From Thiobacillus denitrificans ATCC 25259 (GTDB taxonomy: Bacteria > Pseudomonadota > Gammaproteobacteria > Burkholderiales > Thiobacillaceae): a DNA stretch of 64,000 nt. Below are positions 1 to 57,033 of the stretch, in pieces. The notes beneath the pieces were generated by a model. That model had not been told where the DNA came from and did not search any database. It was given only the letters and a program-made list of their open reading frames with translations. Location of the stretch: NCBI RefSeq assembly GCF_000012745.1, contig NC_007404.1, positions 1,984,001 through 2,048,000 of the forward strand. The letters run 5' to 3'. Made by a program: the position numbers and the translations under genes. Numbering within the stretch: the stretch's first letter is position 1; every line of letters starts with the position of its first letter.

Positions 1-79
1 CGGTTGCGCCCGTGATCAGGAACACACGAGGGTCATTATTCAGTGCCGAGGAAACAGCAGAGGTGAATTCAAGTGCCAT
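1..79 (-). CDS. N-terminal fragment of a gene cut by the window edge, possibly a Rossmann-fold oxidoreductase
   Basis: Only about 26 codons are visible, from an ATG at 77-79 to the window edge. The translation ends in VFLITGAT, which resembles the first strand and glycine loop of NAD(P)-binding SDR or epimerase proteins. A DPRVFL-type N-terminus also occurs in thiamine-diphosphate enzyme subunits, so the family is open. It lies 15 bp after the cyclase stop codon on the same strand, so it is probably the fourth gene of the polysaccharide precursor operon. Confidence 0.5.
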   Translation of the reverse strand, partial: MALEFTSAVSSALNNDPRVFLITGAT

Positions 80-94
80 AGCTTCACCTGCCAG

Positions 95-1186
95 TCATTC
101 AGCGGCCGACAAGAAATCGGGACGCCGTATGGCTCCGAACGTCTCCTTGATGATGCGTTCTGATTCTGGCGAACGCGGCAAAGCCAGCCTTTGCAGACGG
201 CCCGCCTGGTCGATGCCAACAATCGTATATGCGGTAGCACTGTGTTTTTTGTCTGCCGCAAAGCGATCGAACAAATCCTGCTCAGTCGTGGCTGCAAGCA
301 CTTCGCCTAATCCATCGATATGTGCGAGCAAACCCCGGATATGGGCAGCCAACGTGGTAGCCGGTAGCGGAAGCGCCCGGTTCCCGGTGGCGAGCCGGGC
401 ATAGTGCATCGCGGCCAGCATGCCGACACCTACTGCCACGCCGTGGCTGACGGCGAACTTGGCCGCCCCCTCGATTGCATGTCCGAACGTATGGCCAAAA
501 TTGAGCAAGAGCCGCTCATTGCGATCGAATTCGTCGACCTCGATGAACCATTTCTTGGAGCGCAAGCTCAATTCGATCAACCGTGACAGGTCAACGTTTT
601 CCAGATCGGCCGATGGATGCAGCGCCAGGTAACGCGCGAATACATCTTCGCCGCGCGCATAACATATCTTGGCGGCCTCGCAGAGACCAGCCACCTTCTG
701 CTCAATGGCGAGCGTTCCGTTTAAACCAGGATCAACCAGGATTTCTTCGGGCGGATAGAAGTTGCCGACGATGTTCTTGTATGGGCCAACATTGATGGCG
801 GATTTTCCGCCAATGCAGGAATCAACCATGCCGAGCAGAGTTGTCGGCAGATACTTCCAGGAAATCCCCCGCATGTAGATCGAAGCGCAAAACGTAGCGA
901 CATCCTGGATGACCCCCCCGCCGACCGCGACTAAGTTCGTATTACGCGTGGCCCCGTTCGCTCGCAAGCTAATAATCACCTCGGACATTCGATCAAGGCT
1001 TTTCACGTACTCAGTCGCATCAACTGCTATGACGGGGCGACCAGAATGTGCCAGGCGGTTCGCAAAGAAACGATCGCAGAGGAAAATGCTGTCGTTCGCG
1101 GCCTCGAACGTCGCCTCAAGCAAATCTTTTCCGATCCGAACTTGATAGGGCTTGATTTCTGAATGGATATCAAAGGATACGGACAC
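95..1186 (-). CDS. 3-dehydroquinate synthase-like sugar phosphate cyclase
   Basis: The 363-aa protein has the hallmarks of the AroB/sugar-phosphate-cyclase fold. There is an NAD-binding GGG at 89-91, VDSCIGGKSAIN at 121-132, a metal-ligand Glu in LCEAAK near 170, and NFGHTFGHAIE at 229-239 with a further His at 248. Family members cyclise DAHP or a heptulose phosphate using NAD and Zn. The GTG start at 1186 overlaps the end of the SDR gene by 17 nt and is preceded by GGGA. Its place with an aldolase and an SDR beside an O-antigen ligase argues for a specialised cyclase making an unusual polysaccharide precursor, not the housekeeping shikimate enzyme. The exact substrate cannot be told from sequence. 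Base composition is more AT-rich than downstream genes. Confidence 0.8.
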   Translation of the reverse strand: MSVSFDIHSEIKPYQVRIGKDLLEATFEAANDSIFLCDRFFANRLAHSGRPVIAVDATEYVKSLDRMSEVIISLRANGATRNTNLVAVGGGVIQDVATFCASIYMRGISWKYLPTTLLGMVDSCIGGKSAINVGPYKNIVGNFYPPEEILVDPGLNGTLAIEQKVAGLCEAAKICYARGEDVFARYLALHPSADLENVDLSRLIELSLRSKKWFIEVDEFDRNERLLLNFGHTFGHAIEGAAKFAVSHGVAVGVGMLAAMHYARLATGNRALPLPATTLAAHIRGLLAHIDGLGEVLAATTEQDLFDRFAADKKHSATAYTIVGIDQAGRLQRLALPRSPESERIIKETFGAIRRPDFLSAAE

Positions 1187-1898
1187 GGCTAAATCCCAAG
1201 TCAGCGGCTATGAACTGGCCAGTTATGCCCGTATTCTCTTCCGAGCAAAGAAACATCGCGAGCCGGGAAACATCTCCCAACTGCGGAAGACGACCGAATT
1301 GTGTTGCGCTAGCCAATTCGCCTATCTGTTCAGCGGTAAGATTTTCGCGAGTCATTGGCGTGTCCAGCGCCCCCGGAAGTATGGCGTTAACAAGATGGCC
1401 GTCAGCCGCGAGGTCCGCCGCCGCCGACAACACCAGCCCTCGCAGTGCCGATTTCGTCATGCCATAGGAGAGCTTGTTTTGCCTCGCAATCTCCTGCCAG
1501 ATCGAACTGATGACGCATAACCTCGCAGGCTGGGCGAGCAAGCTCCGCTGCAGAAGCAGCTTCAACGACGACAGGATGTATATGCAGTTGGTCTGATAGA
1601 GCTGTAAATGCGCATCCACATCTACGTCATAGACGCTATCGTTGACGTTTCCTCCCTGGGCCCAGCACACGGCATGGTATGGAGCGTATTCATCATAACC
1701 GTCCGCTGCCACGTGACCGGCCAACGGATCAGCGATTATCCAGGACACTCCATTGGCTTGACCGGAGCGCACACTGCGGGTCACGCCGACTACGCTCCAG
1801 TCGCGAGACAAGAATAAGTCCGCAATGGAGGATCCGATTGCGCCACTAGCACCAAATAGCAAGATCGTTTTGCGCGGCTTATCCATGGCCGGAGTCAA
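1170..1898 (-). CDS. short-chain dehydrogenase/reductase (SDR)
   Basis: A classical SDR of 242 aa. The N-terminal glycine motif GASGAIGSS sits near residue 15, an active-site Ser lies in VISSIW, and the catalytic pair YGMTK follows. The C-terminus [11 protein letters not shown] is typical of FabG-like reductases. It is expected to interconvert a ketone and an alcohol with NAD(P)H, probably on an intermediate handled by the neighbouring aldolase and cyclase. The longest frame begins at a TTG that overlaps the aldolase stop (TTGA); an ATG at 1886 (protein MDKPRK) is an equally good start. Translational coupling on both sides indicates one operon. Confidence 0.85.
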
Positions 1899-2737
1899 AT
1901 GTTCGGTTGGTTTACATACGTCGACGTGCTCGCCTTCTCATCGGCCGAAAGCACGTGCCATCGTCTCTCAAGCATTTCTATGCGCTTAGCATCCTCTTTC
2001 AGAATGCAACTGTAGTACTCACGCTTGTTCAGCAGCCAAAGCAATTCGAAATGAACGGCCTGCAGCAGCCCGTTATGGACATCCGCATTCTCCATCATCG
2101 CTGCATCAAAAATGATTTTTCTCGTCTCGAATCGGGAGAGATGACTCGAATTCAACTCCTTCATGATCGAGAGCGCATCCATCGATACGCCGCCTCCCAC
2201 TACAAAATCCAAGCCGCTCCTTTTGCACGCCTCCGAAACCTCAAGGCAGTAGGAGGTGACTTTTGGGTCATTGATGTCATCGCGCGTGAGTCCCATAGAC
2301 AGAGAAAAGTCGACGCGACCAAAGACGACCCCGTCCGCCCCCCCGGGTTGAGCAGCTATTTGCACCAATTCATCCATACAACCGAACGCGCTCTTTGTTT
2401 CTACATTAAAGAGAAATCGCGTATCGCGTTGTTCATCCTTGCTATACACCTTGTTTTTTGCATCAATGAATTTGGACAAGGCATAGCCACTCTCTATCAT
2501 GGGGGCAATAATGTACTCGACGCCGTATTGCTTGCTTTCCATCAAATCGCGCATCGCCTCGCAGCCTCCGATTTTTAGGCCGACGTTGAGACCCGCCTTG
2601 CGTGCCAGCTCGATCAGTCTCAACAATTCGTCCGTGCGCGTCCCTTCCGCCTCGAATTCAGCCTTGACGCCGACGTAGCCCAGTTCCTGCTTACCTCGCT
2701 TGAGAAGATCCAACATTTTTCTTTCATACTGATTCAT
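1895..2737 (-). CDS. HpcH/HpaI-type aldolase or citrate-lyase-like lyase
   Basis: The 280-aa protein looks like the HpcH/HpaI (CitE-like) TIM-barrel family, which cleaves or forms C-C bonds next to a 2-oxo acid with a divalent metal. Supporting sites are [10 protein letters not shown] near 25-34, the strand IIAPMIES at 76-83, the metal Glu in FNVETKSA (E113) and the metal Asp in VVFGRVDFS (D143). The ATG at 2737 has a strong GGAGG upstream (2745-2750). It is the first gene of the operon that continues with the SDR and the cyclase, so it may make the keto-sugar they act on. The substrate is unknown. Confidence 0.75.
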
Positions 2738-2808
2738 AACATTCCTCCAACCGGATCCGAAGTGCCTGCAAGGCAGTAAATAAGTTAATTGCCAGAGCTT
2801 CCAAAGCC

Positions 2809-4056
2809 CTACGTGTATGGCCTATTCGATGAGACGTGTTCGACGGACGGCGCGGTCCGGGAAATAGCGATCATCCACCCGACCACCAGCGACCAATAGG
2901 CCGAATAAATCGCGGTATGCGTATTGAAAGGGAAGAGCCAGGCGAATACCCCCAGCCAAGCCGGCCAAGCCAAGTACTCCCGAGACATCCCCTGCGCCGA
3001 CCGGATCAGAACCGCGAAAAACATCAGCAACCCGACCAATCCAATGCCCCCGGTTTCTGAGCCAACCTCCAGCACCAATTGATGGGCGTAAATCATCCCC
3101 GTCCCGTCCGGACTTAAGTAAGGGTCGTTCGGCTTCGCATACTTGGCATATGCGTAGCGATAACTACGGACCCCTGCCCCATTTACGGGGTGATTCTTCA
3201 GGACGGTGAGCGCATTGTTCCACAAGTGAACCCTATAGGAACTGGCGTTGTTCAGGCTTTCATACGTGAAGTCAAACGCCGACAAGGATTGATCCACGCG
3301 CTGGGCAAACTTCGGGTTGACTTGATACACTCCGACACCCGCGACCACCGCTGCCACCACAAGCGGCCCGAGTAACCTCACCGGATGAAACGCGAGCCTC
3401 CGCGCATAAACCCAAGTCCACATCACGGTCGCGACGGCGAAGACGATCCAGCTTTCGCGATTGCTCGCGAGGAGGACCACGGCCGCTGTGCCGAGCCAGG
3501 CCAATGCCAATTGCCAGCGAGTGCCGTGGCGCGAGAAATATTCCCACACAATCGGCGACAGCATCGCCAGCGTGAGGCCGAGCTTCCAGTTGGTCGGGCC
3601 ATATATGCCGTTCAGGCGTTCCGGGTAAGCGTGGCCGAACAGATCGTAGCCGACGATTGCCTGAATCAAGGCGTCGACCACCCAGAACACCAACAGCCAC
3701 GCGGACAGCTTGAAGAGGCGCTCGCGCGCCAAAGGCTCGCGCAGCATCCAGATCAGATACAGACCGGCGAGCCAGATACGCGGAAAGGTAAGCGCGGTGC
3801 TCAGTGACTTCTTGAACCAGAGCGAGTCAGGCACGGACAGCGCTATCGGCACCCAGATGCACAGGAACAGCAGGCTGAAGGTCTTGGCGCCGCCTTCCCA
3901 CGCGACCGCCCGGCCATGCTTCCAGAGCAGAATGCCGCCGAGGATGGCCATGATGAACATGGGCAACTCGGACGAGCGAGCGAATGGCAGGAGCAGCAGG
4001 AAAGACCAGGCGAGGACGGGGGGCGTCCATGTTCTGGGGAGGAACAATGATTTCAT
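2809..4056 (-). CDS. O-antigen ligase/polymerase (WaaL/Wzy-like) membrane protein
   Basis: A polytopic inner-membrane protein of 415 aa with about ten or more hydrophobic segments. It carries the Wzy_C/O-antigen ligase signature in its long periplasmic loop: [11 protein letters not shown], then [12 protein letters not shown], then [14 protein letters not shown] just before the last helices. WaaL proteins transfer O-antigen from undecaprenyl diphosphate to lipid A core, and Wzy proteins polymerise it; the two are hard to separate by sequence. The ATG at 4056 is preceded by an in-frame TTG at 4059. The start overlaps the divergent glycosyltransferase start by about 10 nt. It lies 71 nt upstream of the aldolase and may share its transcript. 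Confidence 0.8.
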
Positions 4057-49299: not shown

Positions 49300-49319
49300 G
49301 TCGTGCCGGTCGGCACGAC
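49300..49319. repeat. stem-loop in the leader of the DUF1540 gene
   Basis: GTCGTGCC and GGCACGAC pair perfectly over 8 bp around a GGTC tetraloop and finish 20 nt before the DUF1540 start codon, next to its AAGGAG. It could affect translation or be an operator. The preceding 190 bp contain no gene. Confidence 0.5.
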
Positions 49320-49338
49320 GTCATCAAGGAGAATCCCC

Positions 49339-49638
49339 ATGAAAAACATCGTCATCGAGATGCCCACCGTCGCGAGCTGCCTGGCGACGGAATGCGCGTA
49401 CAACGTCAACGAGGACTGCCACGCCCGCGCGATCACCGTGGGCAACAGCCTCCACGCCGGCTGCGACACCTTCTTCTCCGGCTCCGAACATACCCGCGCC
49501 GTGCAGCGTACCGCGGGTGTCGGCGCCTGCAAGTCCAAGGAATGCGAGTTCAACCAGGACCTCGAATGCATGGCCGACAGCATCACCGTCGCGCCGCACG
49601 GCAAGGCGGTCGACTGCATGACCTACGCGCCGCGCTGA
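49339..49638 (+). CDS. double DUF1540 cysteine-rich protein
   Basis: A 99-aa protein with two copies of an eight-cysteine pattern in total: Cys14, 19, 27, 42 and Cys64, 69, 77, 93, each C-x4-C-x7-C-x14/15-C. The core of each copy reads CAYNVNEDCHARAITVG or CEFNQDLECMADSITV. This is the DUF1540 motif, thought to bind metal; its biology is unknown. AAGGAG precedes the ATG at 49339. It lies between the EAL-HDOD gene and the second HMA-like gene. Confidence 0.88.
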   Translation: MKNIVIEMPTVASCLATECAYNVNEDCHARAITVGNSLHAGCDTFFSGSEHTRAVQRTAGVGACKSKECEFNQDLECMADSITVAPHGKAVDCMTYAPR

Positions 49639-49997: not shown

Positions 49998-50924
49998 TCA
50001 GGACTCGCCCCGGGCAGGCGGCAGGCTTACCAGGACCGCGCCGCCCTCTTTCTTGTCCACCACGAGGGCGCCGCGCTTGTGCGCGTCGTCGAGGATCTTT
50101 CCGAACGCGCTGTAGCCGTACTGCGACTCGCTGAAGCCGGGCTGGATGCGCTTGATCGTGTTCTTGATCAGCGAGGCCGAGATCGCGCCTTCGCCGCGCT
50201 CGGCGACCAGTTGTTCGAGCGTGCCGACGACGATTTCGATCGCCCGGGTTTTCTGTTCTTCGGGCGTCGGCTCGGCGGCCGGCGCAGCCTCGACGGCATC
50301 GGCAGCCTGCGCGACAGCGGGACGTCCGCGCCGGCGGGTCGTCGTCGCTGGTTTGGCCGCCGCGCCCGTCTCCACCTCCTTCGCGGGCTGCGGCGGAACA
50401 GCGACTTTCTCGCTCGGCGCCTTCTTCGCCGGCCGCGTGGGCCGGGCCTTGGGCTGCACAAGATCTTCGTAAAAGATGAACTCGTCGCAGTTGCTGATCA
50501 GGAGCGACGACGCCGAGCCACGCACGCCGATACCGATCACGCTCTTGCCGTTCTCCTTGAGCTTGGAGATGAGCGGCGAGAAATCGGAATCGCCACTGAT
50601 GATGACGAAGGCGTCGATGTGCGCCTTGGTGTAGCAGAGGTCGAGCGCGTCGACGACCATGCGGATGTCGGCCGAGTTCTTGCCCGACTGGCGCACGTGC
50701 GGGATCTCGATCAGCTCGAACGCGGCTTCGTGCATGTCGCGCTTGTATTCCTTGTAGCGGTCCCAGTCGCAATACGCTTTCTTGACGACGATGCTGCCCT
50801 TGAGAAGCAGGCGTTCGAGCACCGGGCGTATCTTGAAATCCGGGTAATTGCCTTCCTTGAGGCCGATCGCGACGTTTTCGAAATCGCAGAAAACGGCGAA
50901 GTTGTGCGTGTCTGTTGCCGCCAT
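49998..50924 (-). CDS. NYN-domain nuclease-like protein with a C-terminal LOTUS/OST-HTH domain
   Basis: A 308-aa protein. The PIN-like NYN domain (residues 8-165) has the acidic set FCDFENVA (D14), SADIRMVVDAL (D86) and ISGDSDFSPL (D112, D114). A charged Ala/Pro/Lys linker leads to a C-terminal OST-HTH/LOTUS domain (about 228-303: LEQLVAERGEGAISASLIKN, GFSESQYGYSAFGKIL). The combination is that of LabA/DUF88 and limkain-like proteins, which are likely RNA-binding nucleases. GAGGGAG precedes the ATG at 50924. Confidence 0.88.
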   Translation of the reverse strand: MAATDTHNFAVFCDFENVAIGLKEGNYPDFKIRPVLERLLLKGSIVVKKAYCDWDRYKEYKRDMHEAAFELIEIPHVRQSGKNSADIRMVVDALDLCYTKAHIDAFVIISGDSDFSPLISKLKENGKSVIGIGVRGSASSLLISNCDEFIFYEDLVQPKARPTRPAKKAPSEKVAVPPQPAKEVETGAAAKPATTTRRRGRPAVAQAADAVEAAPAAEPTPEEQKTRAIEIVVGTLEQLVAERGEGAISASLIKNTIKRIQPGFSESQYGYSAFGKILDDAHKRGALVVDKKEGGAVLVSLPPARGES

Positions 50925-51123
50925 GTCGGGGCTCCCTCGATGTGTGTCTGGGTGCGCCATGTCGCTGCGCCCGCACACCGGGCGTGGCGAAACGGCCGCT
51001 CGAGCGCCTCATGCTAACCGGGAAAAGGGCGAGGCGCGCCGTCGACCGGGCGTCCCGTGATCCGGGAACGCGACGGCAGCGGCTCCGCGAACACTCGCCG
51101 AACCGCTGCAACGCACGCCAAAC

Positions 51124-51567
51124 TCAGTACATTCTGTAGGGCAGGAACTTGCCGTTCAGGACGATACGTACACGATCGCCTTTGGGGTCAGCCTCGCGCG
51201 AGATGTCCATCGAGAAATCGATCGCACTCATGATGCCGTCGCCGAATTCCTCGTGGATCAATTCCTTGATGCTCGTGCCATAGACGTTGATCAACTCGTA
51301 AAAGCGGTAGATCAACGGATCGGTCGGCACGGCGGTCGGCAAGGATCCCTTGTACGGCACGACCTGCAGCCCGTCGACCGCGTCGGCCGGCAGATCGAGC
51401 AGGCGGCCGACGGCGCCCGCTTGCGCGGCGCTCAGCGTCATCTGCCCGAGCAGCGCGGCCGCGGTCCATTCCTTGCTCTGGCCCGTCGCCTCGGCGAGCT
51501 GCGCCCATTTGAGTTGCTTGCGGCGCTTGCTGTCGAGGACGAGTTGGGTGACTTGGTCGCGTGTCAT
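51124..51567 (-). CDS. cynS: cyanate hydratase (cyanase)
   Basis: A 147-aa protein, family length. It converts cyanate and bicarbonate to ammonia and two CO2. The catalytic triad of the decamer interface is present at Arg88 and Glu91 (IYRFYELI) and Ser114 (GIMSAIDFS). The ATG shares ATGA with the stop of the phosphatase-kinase gene, so cyanase synthesis is coupled to it. The usual cynR/cynT partners are not visible. Confidence 0.96.
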   Translation of the reverse strand: MTRDQVTQLVLDSKRRKQLKWAQLAEATGQSKEWTAAALLGQMTLSAAQAGAVGRLLDLPADAVDGLQVVPYKGSLPTAVPTDPLIYRFYELINVYGTSIKELIHEEFGDGIMSAIDFSMDISREADPKGDRVRIVLNGKFLPYRMY

Positions 51568-53372
51568 CGCGATCTCCTTTCGCTGGGTTGGGAGGAAACG
51601 AATGCGGCGCCGCGCTCAGCCGACGGCTCTGCCGACGTGGCGGGCAACCGGGTGGCATGCAAGGCCGCGGCGAGCGCGACGACGACGAGCGCAAGCACGA
51701 GCGACAGTCCCTGCCAGAACGCGAGCGGATGGCGTTCGATCAGTGGCGAGGCGGGCCGGCTCGGCGAGGGGTGGCGCAGGTCGAACGTGAACTCGGACAG
51801 GTTCTCGTAGCGGCGTTCGGGCTCGGGGTGGACGGCCTTGCGGATCGCGTCGTCGACCCACGGTGGAATCGCGCGGCGGCCGTCGCGCAGCGAGCGATAA
51901 CGCAGTCTGCGCTGATCGGCCCGCGTCCTGTAGCGGGCGACCTGCGTGTCGTAAGGCAGCTCGCCGCTCAGCATCTGGTAGGTGATCACGCCGAGCGCGA
52001 ACAGGTCCGCGGCGCGCGTGCCGCCGTCCCCGAGCAGGCGCTCGGGGGCCGTGTATTGCAGCGTGCCGAGTTCGATGCCGCGCCCGGCCAGGGGGTCGGT
52101 CTCGCGCATACCGGCCACCTCGGTCGAGCCGAAGTCGATGATCTTCACGGTGCCGTTCGGCTCGATCATGATGTTCTCCGGCCGCAGATCCTGGTGCAGC
52201 ATCTCGAGCCGGTGAAACGCCCGCAGCCCGCGGGCGATCTGTTCGACGATGCCGCGCACGGTCTCGAGGTCGGGCCGCGGGTGATCGATCATCCACTGGC
52301 CCAGCGTCTGGCCTTCGACGAACTCCATCGCGGTGTACAGATAGCCCGGCTTGCGTCGTACCGGCGACGGTTTCAGCACGTGCGCGCTGTCGACACGGCG
52401 TGCGACCCACTCTTCCATCAGAAAGCGTTCGAGATAGCCCGCCTCACCCTGCAGCTCGATCGACGGCGCCTTGAGGATCACGCGGGCGCCGCTTTCCTCG
52501 TCGACGGCGAGGTAGACGTGGCTGCGGCTGCTCCCATGCACCTCGCGCACGATCGTATAGCCGTCGAAGCGCATGCGCCCCTGGAGGATGGGCGGAAGCG
52601 GCCGCGCGGCGAGCTGGTTGCGCAGTTCGCGCGCGCCTGCGTTGGGCAGCCTGTCGATTCTGAGGATCTGCACGGTCAGGTTGTCGGCGCTGCCCTGCGC
52701 GTAGGCCTGGCCGGCGATCGCCGCCGCGGCGCGGTCGAGGTCGTCGCCGTGCGTGGCGACGGCGTCGGCCACGAATCCTGCGGCGACGTGTTCGTAGACG
52801 CCGTCGGTCGCGAGCACGAAAACGTCGCCCGCCTCGAGCGCTTCGGCCCGGTAGTCGATTTCGAGCTGGGCATTGATCCCGAGCGCGCGGCCGAGATAGT
52901 GGACGTCGTCGGCAAGCCGCAGCCTGTGGTCGTTCGTCAGTTGCTCGAGCGTGCCGTCGCGCAGGCGGTAGATCCGCGTGTCGCCGACGTGGAAGAGGTG
53001 CGCCGTTGCCGACTTGACGACCAGCGCGCTCAAGGTGCAGACGTAGCCGCGGTCGCGCTCGTAGCGGTAGGGGCTGCGCTGGCTTTGCGCGTGCAGCCAC
53101 GCGTTGAGCGCCGTCAGCACGCGCTGTGCCGAGGTCTTGACCGACCAGGCATCTGGGGTGCAGAAATAATCCTCGAGGAAGCCGGCGACCGCGGCCTGCG
53201 CCGCGACATGGCCGACCGTGCTGCTGCTGATGCCGTCGGCCAGCGCGACAACGACGCCCTTGGCCCGCCGTTGCGTGGCTTCGGGGATACGAATGCCGTG
53301 AAAATCCTGGTTGATTTCCTTGCGTCCGCGGTCCGAATACTGCCCGGCCGATACTTCGAGTTCGCCGCGCAT
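51564..53372 (-). CDS. bifunctional PP2C-type phosphatase-Ser/Thr kinase membrane protein
   Basis: A 602-aa fusion. Residues 1-242 are a PP2C phosphatase with metal Asp residues in VALADGISS (D46), FHVGDTRIYR (D131), ATDGVYEH (D190) and SADNLTVQ (D230). Residues 268-535 are a Hanks-type kinase with Lys301 in VILKAP, the catalytic loop HQDLRPENIM (D395, N400; the usual HRD Arg is Gln) and IIDFGSTE (D413). A single C-terminal helix (about 551-571) anchors it to the membrane. The ATG at 53372 starts a normal phosphatase N-terminus. It lies 53 nt after the FNT gene and overlaps cynS. Confidence 0.92.
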   Translation of the reverse strand: MRGELEVSAGQYSDRGRKEINQDFHGIRIPEATQRRAKGVVVALADGISSSTVGHVAAQAAVAGFLEDYFCTPDAWSVKTSAQRVLTALNAWLHAQSQRSPYRYERDRGYVCTLSALVVKSATAHLFHVGDTRIYRLRDGTLEQLTNDHRLRLADDVHYLGRALGINAQLEIDYRAEALEAGDVFVLATDGVYEHVAAGFVADAVATHGDDLDRAAAAIAGQAYAQGSADNLTVQILRIDRLPNAGARELRNQLAARPLPPILQGRMRFDGYTIVREVHGSSRSHVYLAVDEESGARVILKAPSIELQGEAGYLERFLMEEWVARRVDSAHVLKPSPVRRKPGYLYTAMEFVEGQTLGQWMIDHPRPDLETVRGIVEQIARGLRAFHRLEMLHQDLRPENIMIEPNGTVKIIDFGSTEVAGMRETDPLAGRGIELGTLQYTAPERLLGDGGTRAADLFALGVITYQMLSGELPYDTQVARYRTRADQRRLRYRSLRDGRRAIPPWVDDAIRKAVHPEPERRYENLSEFTFDLRHPSPSRPASPLIERHPLAFWQGLSLVLALVVVALAAALHATRLPATSAEPSAERGAAFVSSQPSERRSR

Positions 53373-53425
53373 CGCCGGTCCCGCAAGCGGTGCCGGACCC
53401 GCCTCGGCGCGCCCGGCCGTGCCGC

Positions 53426-54271
53426 TCAATTGTAGGCGCGCTCGGCGTCGGCCTTGACCGGGTAAGACACCCGCTTGGGCGCGGTCCGGAGGTGCGTCGT
53501 GTAGAGCGTGAGACCGGTGAACGCAAGGCCGCCGACCAGATTGCCGAGCACGGTCGGGATCTCGTTCCAGATCAGGTAGTCCATGACCGAGAAATTGCCG
53601 CCCAGGATCAGTCCCGACGGGAACAGGAACATGTTGACCACCGAATGCTCGAACGCCATCGCGAAGAACAGCATGATCGGCATCCACATCGAGATCACCT
53701 TGCCGGTGACCGTCGTCGAGATCATCGCGCCGACGACGCCCATCGACACCATCCAGTTGCACAGCATGCCGCGGATGAAGAGCGTCAGCATCCCGGCCGC
53801 GCCGTAATCCTTGTAGCCGAGCGTGCGCGCTTCGCCGATGCCTGCGATCTTCTGGCCAACGTCGTTGGGTTCGACCGAGAAGCCGTAGGTGAAGACGATC
53901 GCCATCATGACCGCGACGGTCAACGCGCCGGCGAAGTTGCCGGCGAAGACGAGCCCCCAGTTGCGCAGAATGCCCTTCACCGTCACCCCGGGGCGCTTGT
54001 CGATCAGCGCGAGCGGCGTCAGCACGAACACCCCGGTCAAGAGATCGAAGCCCATCAGATAGAGCATCACGAAGCCGACCGGGAACAGCAGCGCGCCGAC
54101 CAGCGGCGAGCCGGTCTGCACCGTCATGCTGACCGCGAAGACCGCGGCGAGCGCGAGGATCGCGCCGGCCATGTAGGCCCGGATCAGCGTATCGCGCGTC
54201 GCCATGAAGACCTTGGCCTCGCCCGCGTCCACCATCTTCGTCACAAATTCGGAAGGCACCAGATATGCCAT
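53426..54271 (-). CDS. formate/nitrite transporter (FNT) family channel
   Basis: A 281-aa six-helix protein. FNT signatures are LMGFDLLTGVFVLTP in the first half, GNFAGAL, RGMLCNWMVSMGV and FEHSVVNMFLFPSGL, which contains the central-pore His209 of FocA numbering. FNT channels carry small monovalent anions such as formate, nitrite, hydrosulfide and lactate. GAGGAGAAAT precedes the ATG at 54271. It heads a three-gene set with the phosphatase-kinase and cyanase, so cyanate or nitrite import is a plausible role. Confidence 0.92.
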   Translation of the reverse strand: MAYLVPSEFVTKMVDAGEAKVFMATRDTLIRAYMAGAILALAAVFAVSMTVQTGSPLVGALLFPVGFVMLYLMGFDLLTGVFVLTPLALIDKRPGVTVKGILRNWGLVFAGNFAGALTVAVMMAIVFTYGFSVEPNDVGQKIAGIGEARTLGYKDYGAAGMLTLFIRGMLCNWMVSMGVVGAMISTTVTGKVISMWMPIMLFFAMAFEHSVVNMFLFPSGLILGGNFSVMDYLIWNEIPTVLGNLVGGLAFTGLTLYTTHLRTAPKRVSYPVKADAERAYN

Positions 54272-54630
54272 GACATTTCTCCTCGTCGCTATGAACCGTC
54301 CTGGCTGCGGCGCTGCAGCCACGTCAGCTGCCTTCTAGCAACAAGCCTGCCACGCCGCAGGACGTCGCTATGCCGTTGTTCCGTATGGGACTTCGTGGAG
54401 ACGGGCCCTGCCGGGGCAGCAGCGCGACGGGCGCGATGCACCGCGATGCGAGCGCGCGCCTGTTTGTGGTGCACCGCGAGGACGTGCGTCGTGCCGGTCG
54501 CGCGGCGCCCGACGATGACCCGAGCGGGCGACGCACCGGCCAGACATGCCATACGCATCCGCGTCATGGCTTGGCATAATCCCAACCCCGGCTCCTGCCG
54601 GCCCGCTCACTCCGACGCGACTTCCGAACC
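54272..54630. other. 359-bp region without a convincing gene
   Basis: The divergent gap between the FNT gene and tex. An open frame of 69 codons at 54370-54579 on the plus strand lacks a ribosome-binding site and is Arg/Ala-rich, as expected from composition. The region should hold both promoters, but I could not pick a confident -35/-10 pair. Confidence 0.55.
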
Positions 54631-57033
54631 ATGCTCCCGCCCATTGCACACCGCCTCGCCGCCGAGGTTGCCGCCACCCCGGCCCAGGTCGCCGCCGCCA
54701 TCGCCCTGCTCGACGAGGGGGCGACCGTGCCCTTCATCGCGCGCTACCGCAAGGAAGCGACCGGCGGACTCGACGACGCGCAACTGCGCCTGCTCGAAGA
54801 CCGGCTGCGCTACCTGCGCGAACTCGAAGCGCGCCGCGCGGCGATCATCGATTCGGTCAACGAGCAGGGCAAGATGACGCCCGAGCTGCTGAGCGCGCTC
54901 TCGCTCGCGGCGGACAAGACGCAGCTCGAAGACCTCTATCTTCCGTACAAGCCCAAGCGACGCACGAAGGCGCAGATCGCGCAGGAAGCCGGCCTCGCGC
55001 CGCTGGCCGATGCCCTGCTCGCGAACCCGCTGCTCGACCCCGAACACGAGGCAGGCGCTTACCTGCGCGAGCCGTTCGCAACCGACGCGGGCGAGAATCC
55101 GGGCGTTCCCGACACGAAGGCGGCGCTCGACGGTGCGCGGCAAATCCTGATGGAGCGCTTCGCCGAAGACGCAACGCTGCTGCAAGACCTGCGCGACTAC
55201 CTGCTCGAGCACGGCGTCGTCGAATCGAAGCTGCGCGAGGGCAAGGCGAGCGCGGCGGAAAAATACGCCGACTACTTCGACTATGCCGAGGCGCTCGCCG
55301 CGATTCCGTCGCACCGCGCGCTCGCGCTGCTGCGCGGCCGCCGCGAGGACCTGCTCGACGTGCGGCTGCGCCTCGACAGCGAGGAGGAGCGTCCGGCCTG
55401 GAGCGCGCCGCACAACCCCTGCGAGGCGCGCATCGCGCGGCGCTTCGGCATCGCCGACCAGAACCGCCCGGCCGACCGCTGGCTGATGGACACGGTGCGC
55501 TTCACCTGGCGCGTGAAGAGCTTCATGCACCTCGAACTCGAATTGATGGGCGCGCTGCGCAGCCGCGCCGAGGCCGAAGCGATCAAGGTTTTCGCGCGCA
55601 ACCTCAAGGACCTGCTGCTCGCCGCGCCGGGCGGCCCGCACGTGACAATGGGGCTCGACCCGGGCGTGCGCACCGGCGTCAAGGTCGCCGTCGTCGACGA
55701 GACCGGCAAGGTCGTCGACACCGCGGTGATCTATCCGCATGCGCCAAAAAACGACTGGGACGGTTCCTTGCACGCGCTCGGCAAACTCGCGGAGAAACAT
55801 CACGTCACGCTGATCGCGATCGGCAACGGCACCGCGTCGCGCGAGACCGACAAGCTCGCACGCGAGCTCATCACACTGCGCCCCGAGCTCGGACTCACGA
55901 GCATCGTCGTATCGGAGGCCGGCGCCTCGGTCTATTCCGCGTCGGCCTACGCCTCGCAGGAACTCCCCGAGCTCGACGTCTCGCTGCGCGGCGCAGTCTC
56001 GATCGCGCGCCGGCTGCAGGACCCGCTCGCCGAACTCGTGAAGATCGACCCCAAGTCGATCGGCGTCGGCCAGTACCAGCATGACGTCAGCCAGTTCGAC
56101 CTCGCGCGCGCGCTCGACGCCGTCGTCGAGGACTGCGTCAACGCCGTCGGCGTCGACGTCAACACGGCCTCGGCGCCTTTGCTCGCGCGCGTTTCCGGCC
56201 TCGGCACGAGCGTCGCGCATGCGATCGTCGCCCACCGTGACGCCAAGGGCCGTTTCGCGACGCGTGGCCAGCTGCGTGAGGTCCCGCGTCTCGGCGAGAA
56301 GACCTTCGAGCAGGCCGCGGGCTTCCTGCGCATCGTCGGCGGCGACGACCCGCTCGACGCGTCGGCCGTCCACCCGGAGTCCTATCCGCTGGTGCAGCGC
56401 ATCCTCGCCGACATCAAGCAGGAACTGAAAGCGGTCATCGGCAACGTCCAGGTGCTGAAAACGCTCAGCGCGGCGAAATACGCCGACGAGAAATTCGGCA
56501 TGCCGACGATCAGCGACATTCTCAGGGAGCTCGAGAAGCCCGGCCGCGATCCGCGCCCGGAATTCGCGACCGCGGCATTCAGGGACGGCATCGAAACCCT
56601 CGCTGACCTCAAACCCGAGATGGTTCTCGAAGGCGTCGTCACCAACGTCGCCGCGTTCGGCGCCTTCGTCGATATCGGCGTGCACCAGGACGGCCTCGTC
56701 CACATCTCGGCCCTGTCGAACAGCTTCGTCAAGGACCCCCACACCGTCGTCAAGGCCGGGCAGATCGTAAAGGTCAAGGTGCTCGAGGTCGACGAGAAGC
56801 GCAAGCGCATCGCGCTGACGATGCGGCTGGGCGACGCGGCCGCAGGGAACACCGCGCGGCACGAGACCAGGCAGACGCGGCACGAGGCAGGTCAGGCGCG
56901 GCGCGGGCTGGGGCAGGCGCCGCGCGAGGCACGCCCCGCGCCGGGCAAAGGGTCCGGCGGCAAACCGAATCGCCCGACCGCGGCAGCGCCGGCGGGCGCG
57001 ATGGCCGCGGCTTTCGCCAAGCTGAAGCGGTAA
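54631..57033 (+). CDS. tex: Tex family RNA-binding transcription accessory protein
   Basis: An 800-aa protein. The N-terminal region has [20 protein letters not shown] and [15 protein letters not shown], then the YqgF-like nuclease fold ([17 protein letters not shown]), helix-hairpin-helix motifs ([16 protein letters not shown]) and an S1 domain ([20 protein letters not shown] ... [19 protein letters not shown]). Tex and its relatives bind nucleic acid and elongating RNA polymerase. The tail after the S1 domain is Arg/Gly/Ala-rich and strain-specific in appearance. Confidence 0.96.

Follow-up and report, generated by a model that had tools for sequence, protein, structure and literature searches.

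What would an anion channel, a phosphatase-kinase fusion and a cyanase achieve together, and which anion does the channel carry? The question is raised by three neighbouring genes of Thiobacillus denitrificans ATCC 25259, located in a 64,000-nucleotide stretch of contig NC_007404.1 (positions 1,984,001 to 2,048,000 of the forward strand), here called the window, to whose numbering the coordinates below refer. The genes encode a channel of the FNT family, a fusion of a PP2C phosphatase with a Ser/Thr kinase, and cyanase (cynS). An earlier note on this DNA had regarded them as one coupled set in which the channel imports cyanate (or nitrite) under the control of the membrane kinase. This interpretation is partly supported by the comparisons described here: the triplet is conserved and its pairings recur, but the kinase is not tied to a cyanate system. 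On balance, the locus is rather probably a nitrogen-limitation operon combining a channel that passes both nitrite and cyanate, a kinase/phosphatase of its own that switches it, and a cyanase. The recurrence of the gene set in many bacteria suggests that nitrite and cyanate uptake may be switched by protein phosphorylation.

All three genes lie on the minus strand, in the order FNT, PP2C-kinase fusion, cynS. The FNT gene (53426-54271, 281 amino acids, Pfam Form_Nir_trans 2.2e-62) is followed by an intergenic gap of 53 nucleotides (53373-53425, minus strand) and by the fusion gene (51564-53372, 602 amino acids), with PP2C_2 and Pkinase domains and a C-terminal hydrophobic, presumably membrane-spanning, segment. 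The fusion's stop codon and the start of cynS (51124-51567, 147 amino acids, above the cut-offs of TIGR00673 and PRK02866) share a 4-nucleotide ATGA overlap (51564-51567, minus strand). The extent of the set (51124-54271), its gene order, the gap and the overlap had all been described in the earlier note and were confirmed from the sequence, the open reading frames and Pfam, with the strand being minus; the layout is compatible with a single transcript. In the host genome, a single contig of 2,909,809 bases, there is one cynS match, one FNT match and one kinase-fusion match at E<=1e-60.

The products are readily assigned to families. The channel scores 211 bits against a curated cut-off of 34.6 for Form_Nir_trans, which places it in the FNT family, whose members pass small monovalent anions, and falls below the NCBIfam subfamily cut-offs for TIGR00790 (142.9/232.3 bits), TIGR04060 FocA (118.9/290.1), NirC (46.4/293) and FocB (43.7/499). 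In the fusion, PP2C_2 spans residues 13-196 (63.5 bits) and Pkinase residues 283-522 (117.9 bits), both above curated Pfam cut-offs, while the equivalog cut-offs for the Stp1/IreP phosphatase (97/230 bits) and the PASTA kinase (140.5/450 bits) are missed. Residues D23, D46, D190, D230, K301, D395 and D413, the expected catalytic residues of the two domains, are invariant in all 103 aligned FNT-linked fusions, and both halves of the protein look active. Its most hydrophobic 19-residue segment begins at residue 555 of 602, and such a segment near the C-terminus, with a score of at least 1.8, occurs in 95 of the 103. The cynS product exceeds the curated Pfam cut-offs for Cyanate_lyase (124.7 bits) and CYNS_N (88 bits) and, with 177 bits against 113.3, that of the TIGR00673 equivalog, making it a member of the cyanases. 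Residues R88, E91 and S114 appear, by eye, to match the catalytic Arg96, Glu99 and Ser122 of cyanase (PMC7305129), and cyanase activity has been described in thiocyanate-using Thiobacillus species (PMC6504805).

Relatives of the locus were gathered from two sources. A scan of named genomes with the window FNT protein gave 593 confirmed relatives, of which the best 80 were analysed, with shares that lean to close relatives; these FNTs are 76-89% identical to that of the window and belong to Alpha-, Beta- and Gammaproteobacteria and to one metagenome-assembled genome labelled Verrucomicrobiaceae. A less biased view is given by a class sample of 369 genomes drawn evenly, in which the FNT subfamily (at least 62% identity) amounts to 38 genes in 37 genomes, matches in G422 and G113 (42% identity) being excluded and the split FNT of G184 included. 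Among the resulting 118 FNT loci, all three genes stand together at 30, in several gene orders, and carriers of the triplet include the window genome, Methylomonas sp. SURF-1, Microbulbifer rhizosphaerae, Aestuariicella hydrocarbonica and Teredinibacter waterburyi; the search for co-occurrence in other genomes that the earlier note had proposed has thus shown a conserved triplet. The FNT gene and the kinase fusion form a stable pair. The fusion adjoins FNT, or is separated from it by one cynS, in 75 of the 80 named loci, and lies within 1.5 kb of at least 28 of the 38 class-sample FNT genes. The latter figure is a lower bound, since contig ends truncate the FNT loci of G456 and G417; the class-sample tally took in kinase and nirB matches with a possible position close to an FNT gene. 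On this point the earlier note is supported: kinase and transporter persist as a pair.

The coupling of FNT with cynS, likewise proposed before, is also repeated. In the class sample cynS is present in 50 genomes (counting a single row for each genome, with the additional copies in G137, G410 and G223 left aside), and it co-occurs with the FNT subfamily in 24 of the 369 as against about five expected. In 20 of these 24 the two genes are within 3 kb of each other, the exceptions being G184, G220, G362 and G457. A chance neighbourhood was rejected on these two counts. The p-values for co-occurrence, like those for the ABC transporters below, ignore kinship, and the numbers of changes on trees constitute sounder evidence.

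Some individual loci may be noted at this point. In a search of 100 genomes of the window's family, just one besides the host, G052 (L003/L196), gave a close kinase match (58%), and it has the same triplet; its FNT frame is disrupted about 174 codons from the start, in a draft assembly where error and decay are indistinguishable. G464 has two differing FNT genes (L208/L209), of which one has the kinase and nirB in its vicinity and the other, 65% identical to the window FNT, has cynS and no kinase. In G137 (L180), a single contig carries FNT, two kinase fusions and two cynS-like matches, one at 67% and the other, a partial match, at 74%.

The partner of the kinase is indicated by related fusions without an FNT neighbour, since 41 of the 47 checked have a match to an MFS transporter alongside. 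In the class sample, where 20 kinase loci were picked by hand from the upper part of the list (45-58% identity), 17 have the MFS gene directly upstream or no more than about 1.5 kb away on that side, contig ends truncate two of the remaining three loci, and these MFS neighbours are 53-64% identical to the query, the MFS protein of L082. In fusion loci from the window's family, the match is found beside the kinase in 24 of 27 and is weaker and partial (25-37%). MFS_1 was confirmed in a relative (L036) with the order MFS_1, then Pkinase plus PP2C_2. Under a stricter rule for spacing and strand, 41 of 53 fusions are MFS-linked and 12 unassigned, six second copies in FNT loci included. A kinase tree, built on every second FNT-linked row (52 of 103) with no mixture model and with a warning from the tool that long branches meet, requires only two changes between FNT- and MFS-linked rows. 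Because an MFS transporter accompanies most of the checked fusions that lack FNT, and because the kinase tree follows the transporter type, the partner of the kinase is, as judged from neighbourhood and phylogeny, the transporter rather than cyanase. The claim that the kinase belongs to a cyanate system as such did not hold up, as the same FNT-kinase pair is found by nirBD and most of the checked non-FNT kinases by MFS genes. The pairing pattern fits a regulator of transport; it supports, without proving, the transporter as substrate of the kinase.

Two loci differ from this pattern. The kinase of L215 is of the FNT type by the tree and 57% identical to the window kinase, but is MFS-linked. 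The FNT-type kinase fusion of L216 lies where its contig begins, with nirBD as neighbour. The class-sample FNT search found no match in either genome, and a partner swap is likely. Alternatively, the target of the kinase/phosphatase could be an assimilation enzyme or a regulator instead of a transporter, since its neighbours include nirBD and cynS. This is improbable considering that the kinase follows the transporter whatever enzyme adjoins, with its tree splitting by transporter type.

Evidence from two trees indicates that cynS joined the FNT subfamily repeatedly. The 36 FNT-cynS loci display seven arrangements, with 14 FNT-kinase-cynS, 12 FNT-cynS-kinase, four FNT-cynS (one cut by a contig end), three cynS-FNT-kinase, and one each of cynS-FNT, a divergent cynS at a contig end and a divergent kinase gene. 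On the FNT tree, made by a quick method that left 48 of 114 inner branches open and omitting L003 (a broken FNT of 176 amino acids) and L196 (the same place), adjacency to cynS requires at least 20 changes, of which four are forced by starred branches for the 29-row 'cyn' group. On the cyanase tree, from which L179 (at a contig end) was dropped and for which 18 non-adjacent rows were taken from the cynS matches listed, adjacency to FNT requires nine changes, five of them forced by well-supported branches. The window cyanase clusters with FNT-kinase-cynS loci, and the window FNT, without strong support, with Gallionella-type FNT-cynS-kinase loci. A cynS-specific FNT clade was looked for and not found, the cynS-linked label being scattered over the FNT tree.

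A second transporter type has been found beside cyanase. Thirty class-sample genomes have a cynS that is not FNT-adjacent, and 20 of them were selected by hand, the ten left out including four with FNT elsewhere. In eight of the 20 an ABC ATPase resembling NrtD/CynD (at least 42% identity) is next to cynS; seven of these also have a permease and a binding protein, and in the eighth (L251) the contig ends within the locus. The query proteins were identified as NMT1_2, BPD_transp_1 and ABC_tran, and neither FNT nor an ABC transporter was seen beside cynS in the remaining 12 loci checked. A full ABC set within 4 kb is present in one of the 36 FNT-cynS loci (L032), L191 having ATPase matches only; five of the 36 have less than 3 kb on one side of cynS, where an ABC transporter could escape. 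FNT and ABC transporters look like alternative importers for cyanase in these genomes. The alternation resembles that reported for Nitrospirales, where CynABD, an ABC transporter, is the second candidate importer and both types stand next to cynS in 9.5% of the genomes with cyanase (PMC12342949).

The pore of the channel was compared between gene contexts. Residues T79, F202, H209 and N213 of the window channel are conserved in 95% or more of the 116 channels aligned (L003, L196 and L212, the last cut at a contig end, were omitted from residue comparisons), and correspond by alignment to the pore residues of FocA, Thr91, Phe202, His209 and Asn213. No difference at the conserved pore motifs was detected between 34 cynS-linked and 50 nirBD-linked channels. 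Only four columns (140, 143, 144 and 258) split the two groups in more than half of the rows; three are in the poorly conserved 140-144 stretch and all four outside the conserved pore motifs. Since the pore motifs are alike in both contexts, this comparison argues against a dedicated cyanate channel and favours a single channel with several possible substrates. The stricter reading in the earlier note, a dedicated cyanate channel with the kinase as its cyanate-specific regulator, finds agreement in the triplet at 30 of 118 loci and in the overlap of the kinase and cynS genes, but is very unlikely given so few separating columns, and given that the same channel and kinase also stand by nirBD in the absence of cynS, with channel identities reaching about 84%.

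The expression of the unit is suggested by its upstream region. A sigma54-like promoter, TGGCAGGCTTGTTGCT (54337-54352, minus strand), agrees with the consensus at 11 of 12 positions and starts 81 nucleotides upstream of the FNT start codon, and two weak candidates for NtrC half-sites, GGTGCACC (54468-54475, minus strand) and GGTGCATC (54435-54442, minus strand), are found further upstream; scoring used standard sigma54 and NtrC consensus motifs. Sigma54-like sites are enriched in the relatives, with 53 of 116 FNT upstream regions (up to 350 nucleotides each) scoring at least 10, as against a mean of 1.0 in shuffles that preserved base composition only and one on the reverse strand. By context, they occur in 21 of 29 regions with cynS, four of six with both neighbours, 19 of 31 with neither, and nine of 50 with nirBD only, where FNT mostly lies behind nirD. 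NtrC-like palindromes matching at least 10 of 12 positions are also enriched in relatives: apart from the nirBD-only group they are present in 20 of 66 regions, against 0.9 in shuffles, and within that group in three of 50, against 1.4. The unit is rather probably a nitrogen-limitation operon with a candidate sigma54 promoter that NtrC may drive.

Taken together, these data allow a mechanism to be proposed. The channel would be expressed from the sigma54 promoter, probably under NtrC, and would admit small nitrogen anions, nitrite and cyanate, to the cytoplasm. The membrane-anchored PP2C-kinase, encoded on the same transcript, would reversibly phosphorylate the channel on Ser/Thr, perhaps in its cytoplasmic N-terminal helix, and so switch or tune it, and the direction of the switch would be such as to keep toxic nitrite or cyanate from flooding the cell. 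Co-translated cyanase would then convert imported cyanate and bicarbonate to ammonia and CO2.

A number of observations weigh against this reading. The division into FNT- and MFS-linked kinases could reflect no more than the joint inheritance of two ancient gene pairs, and no kinase is near six of the 36 cynS-linked FNT genes (two of the six cut by contig ends). No clear kinase-specific phosphosite is apparent in the channel: the position of T11 carries Ser or Thr in 95% of the 103 channels with a linked kinase, but also in 62% of 13 unlinked ones, and the signals at T11, S219 and T255 are weak only, three of the 13 unlinked rows being one clade. The best full NtrC site of the window is weak (8/12). 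In the named loci, FNT is more often accompanied by nirBD (48 of 80, with nirB no farther than 6 kb or nirD no farther than 1.5 kb from FNT, three of the 48 also having cynS) than by cynS (15 of 80, within 3 kb), and neither is near FNT in 20 of the 80. The host has its own nirB and nirD about 340 kb from FNT, so nitrite alone could be the substrate. A cyanobacterial FNT protein, NitM, takes up nitrite in a manner not inhibited by cyanate (PMC4390861).

The neighbourhoods concerned have further features. When the neighbours of 12 of the 20 named loci without cynS and nirBD were read by eye, without a family search, no common theme emerged. One such locus (L070) has a molybdopterin-oxidoreductase-like protein downstream, and one nirBD locus (L045), read for comparison, has molybdate-transport-like genes nearby. 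The class sample contributes 12 more FNT loci with neither neighbour (L187, L195 and L198-L207). The class sample has nirB within 7 kb of at least eight of its 38 FNT genes, and no further nirB was seen in the regions fetched around the remaining ones, the G184 region not among them; close relatives commonly have nirBD next to FNT, whereas in the evenly drawn sample this is less frequent and cynS adjoins FNT more often than nirBD does. In the host, nirB and nirD stand beside an 894-amino-acid, nitrate-reductase-like molybdopterin oxidoreductase (L197, 2374000-2390000 of the contig), and the neighbours scanned there include no FNT, MFS transporter or kinase, one of them carrying CNNM/CorC domains.

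As the FNT-kinase pair is often found beside nirBD, nitrite is a likely substrate of the channel, and the wording 'cyanate (or nitrite)' in the earlier note fits the comparative evidence. The channel could even carry nitrite only, with cynS as a neighbour through a shared nitrogen-limitation regulon and with cyanate reaching cyanase either from sources inside the cell or because isocyanic acid diffuses in. The nirB or nirD neighbours just counted, the uniform pore motifs, the insensitivity of NitM-mediated nitrite uptake to cyanate (PMC4390861) and the occurrence of sigma54-like sites whether or not cynS is present agree with this view, but it does not account for the closeness of cynS to FNT in 20 of the 24 genomes with both, for the two FNT genes of G464 with their different partners, or for the replacement of FNT by an ABC transporter beside cynS in eight of 20 loci, and we consider it unlikely, though worth keeping in mind. 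The lone FNT of the host may supply nitrite to nirBD just as it may supply cyanate to cyanase. A transporter serving both anions has precedent in the cyanobacterial ABC cyanate transporter, which also carries nitrite (PMC4390861), and nitrate/nitrite transporters have been suspected of cyanate uptake in Pseudomonas pseudoalcaligenes (PMC6627978).

A third substrate has to be considered on structural grounds. By sequence, the closest solved structure to the window channel is LCIA (9v2a), the low-CO2-inducible protein, a bicarbonate channel, followed by FocA and other FNT/NirC entries. This resemblance would agree with a channel that supplies bicarbonate, the co-substrate of cyanase, but such a role leaves unexplained both the frequent nirBD neighbourhood (48 of 80) and the alternation with nitrate/cyanate-type ABC transporters, and is highly improbable.

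A channel for nitrite and cyanate under phosphorylation control can be placed among known systems. Escherichia coli has a nirB-nirD-nirC operon. There, as with NitM, an FNT protein serves nitrite assimilation, and the window FNT subfamily is also often found by nirBD; the window channel differs from NirC in scoring below the NirC model cut-off and in having a kinase partner. The MFS-linked pairs, often near nirB, resemble the window in having a kinase fusion of the same make-up downstream of a transporter, but the transporter fold is unrelated and the kinases are about 30-50% identical to that of the window, except L215. From the nirB neighbours, nitrate transport by these MFS partners may be inferred. 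The cynABDS operons of cyanobacteria and P. pseudoalcaligenes likewise unite a transporter and cyanase in one unit, but with an ABC transporter and, in P. pseudoalcaligenes, the regulator CynF (PMC6627978), where the window has a channel and a kinase. A further parallel is found in Nitrososphaera gargensis and Nitrospira, in which an FNT protein (NirC) encoded next to cynS is a candidate cyanate importer (PMC10753782; PMC12342949). The window has the same neighbourhood of FNT and cyanase, with one kinase gene in between. For this role in nitrifiers, one of the two papers points to genomic evidence alone (PMC10753782), and the other states that import has yet to be confirmed by experiment (PMC12342949).

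The kinase sets the window apart from the published accounts of these nitrifiers. The word 'kinase' is absent from the main texts of PMC12342949 and PMC10753782, in contrast to the mostly proteobacterial FNT subfamily of the window with its PP2C-kinase. In the open-licence PubMed Central literature, as represented by titles, abstracts and excerpts, no paper was found that deals with a PP2C-kinase as partner of an FNT channel or of an MFS nitrate transporter, nor do the excerpts of PMC2607301, PMC4412052 and PMC12625717 contain anything on such a partner. The earlier note had known of no cyanate system of this kind. As far as that literature shows, this stands for the kinase partner, which is the new part, whereas the FNT-cyanase coupling is a published hypothesis (PMC10753782; PMC12342949).

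In a wider and more tentative view, which we would put at somewhat short of an even chance, the proteobacterial family of membrane-anchored PP2C-kinases would be dedicated switches for nitrogen-anion uptake on both FNT and MFS nitrate-type folds, the FNT branch carrying nitrite and cyanate and cyanase having been recruited many times as an add-on. If true, this would provide a general gate of bacterial FNT channels by Ser/Thr phosphorylation. If the kinase gates the channel, a post-translational layer would be added to bacterial nitrogen uptake, one that follows transporters of two folds. The presence of the triplet in named isolates makes cyanate import by FNT testable.

Upstream of FNT lies tex, on the opposite strand (54631-57033), and downstream of cynS an NYN-domain gene (49998-50978, minus strand); in a domain scan around the unit, none of 10 flanking proteins gave an indication of nitrogen metabolism. 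A small protein with DUF1540 repeats is encoded close to the operon, at 49303-49638. Farther away, the first 4000 nucleotides of the window (1-4000) have a guanine plus cytosine content of 55-56%, compared with 64-71% in the remainder, and perhaps represent a mobile or acquired stretch.

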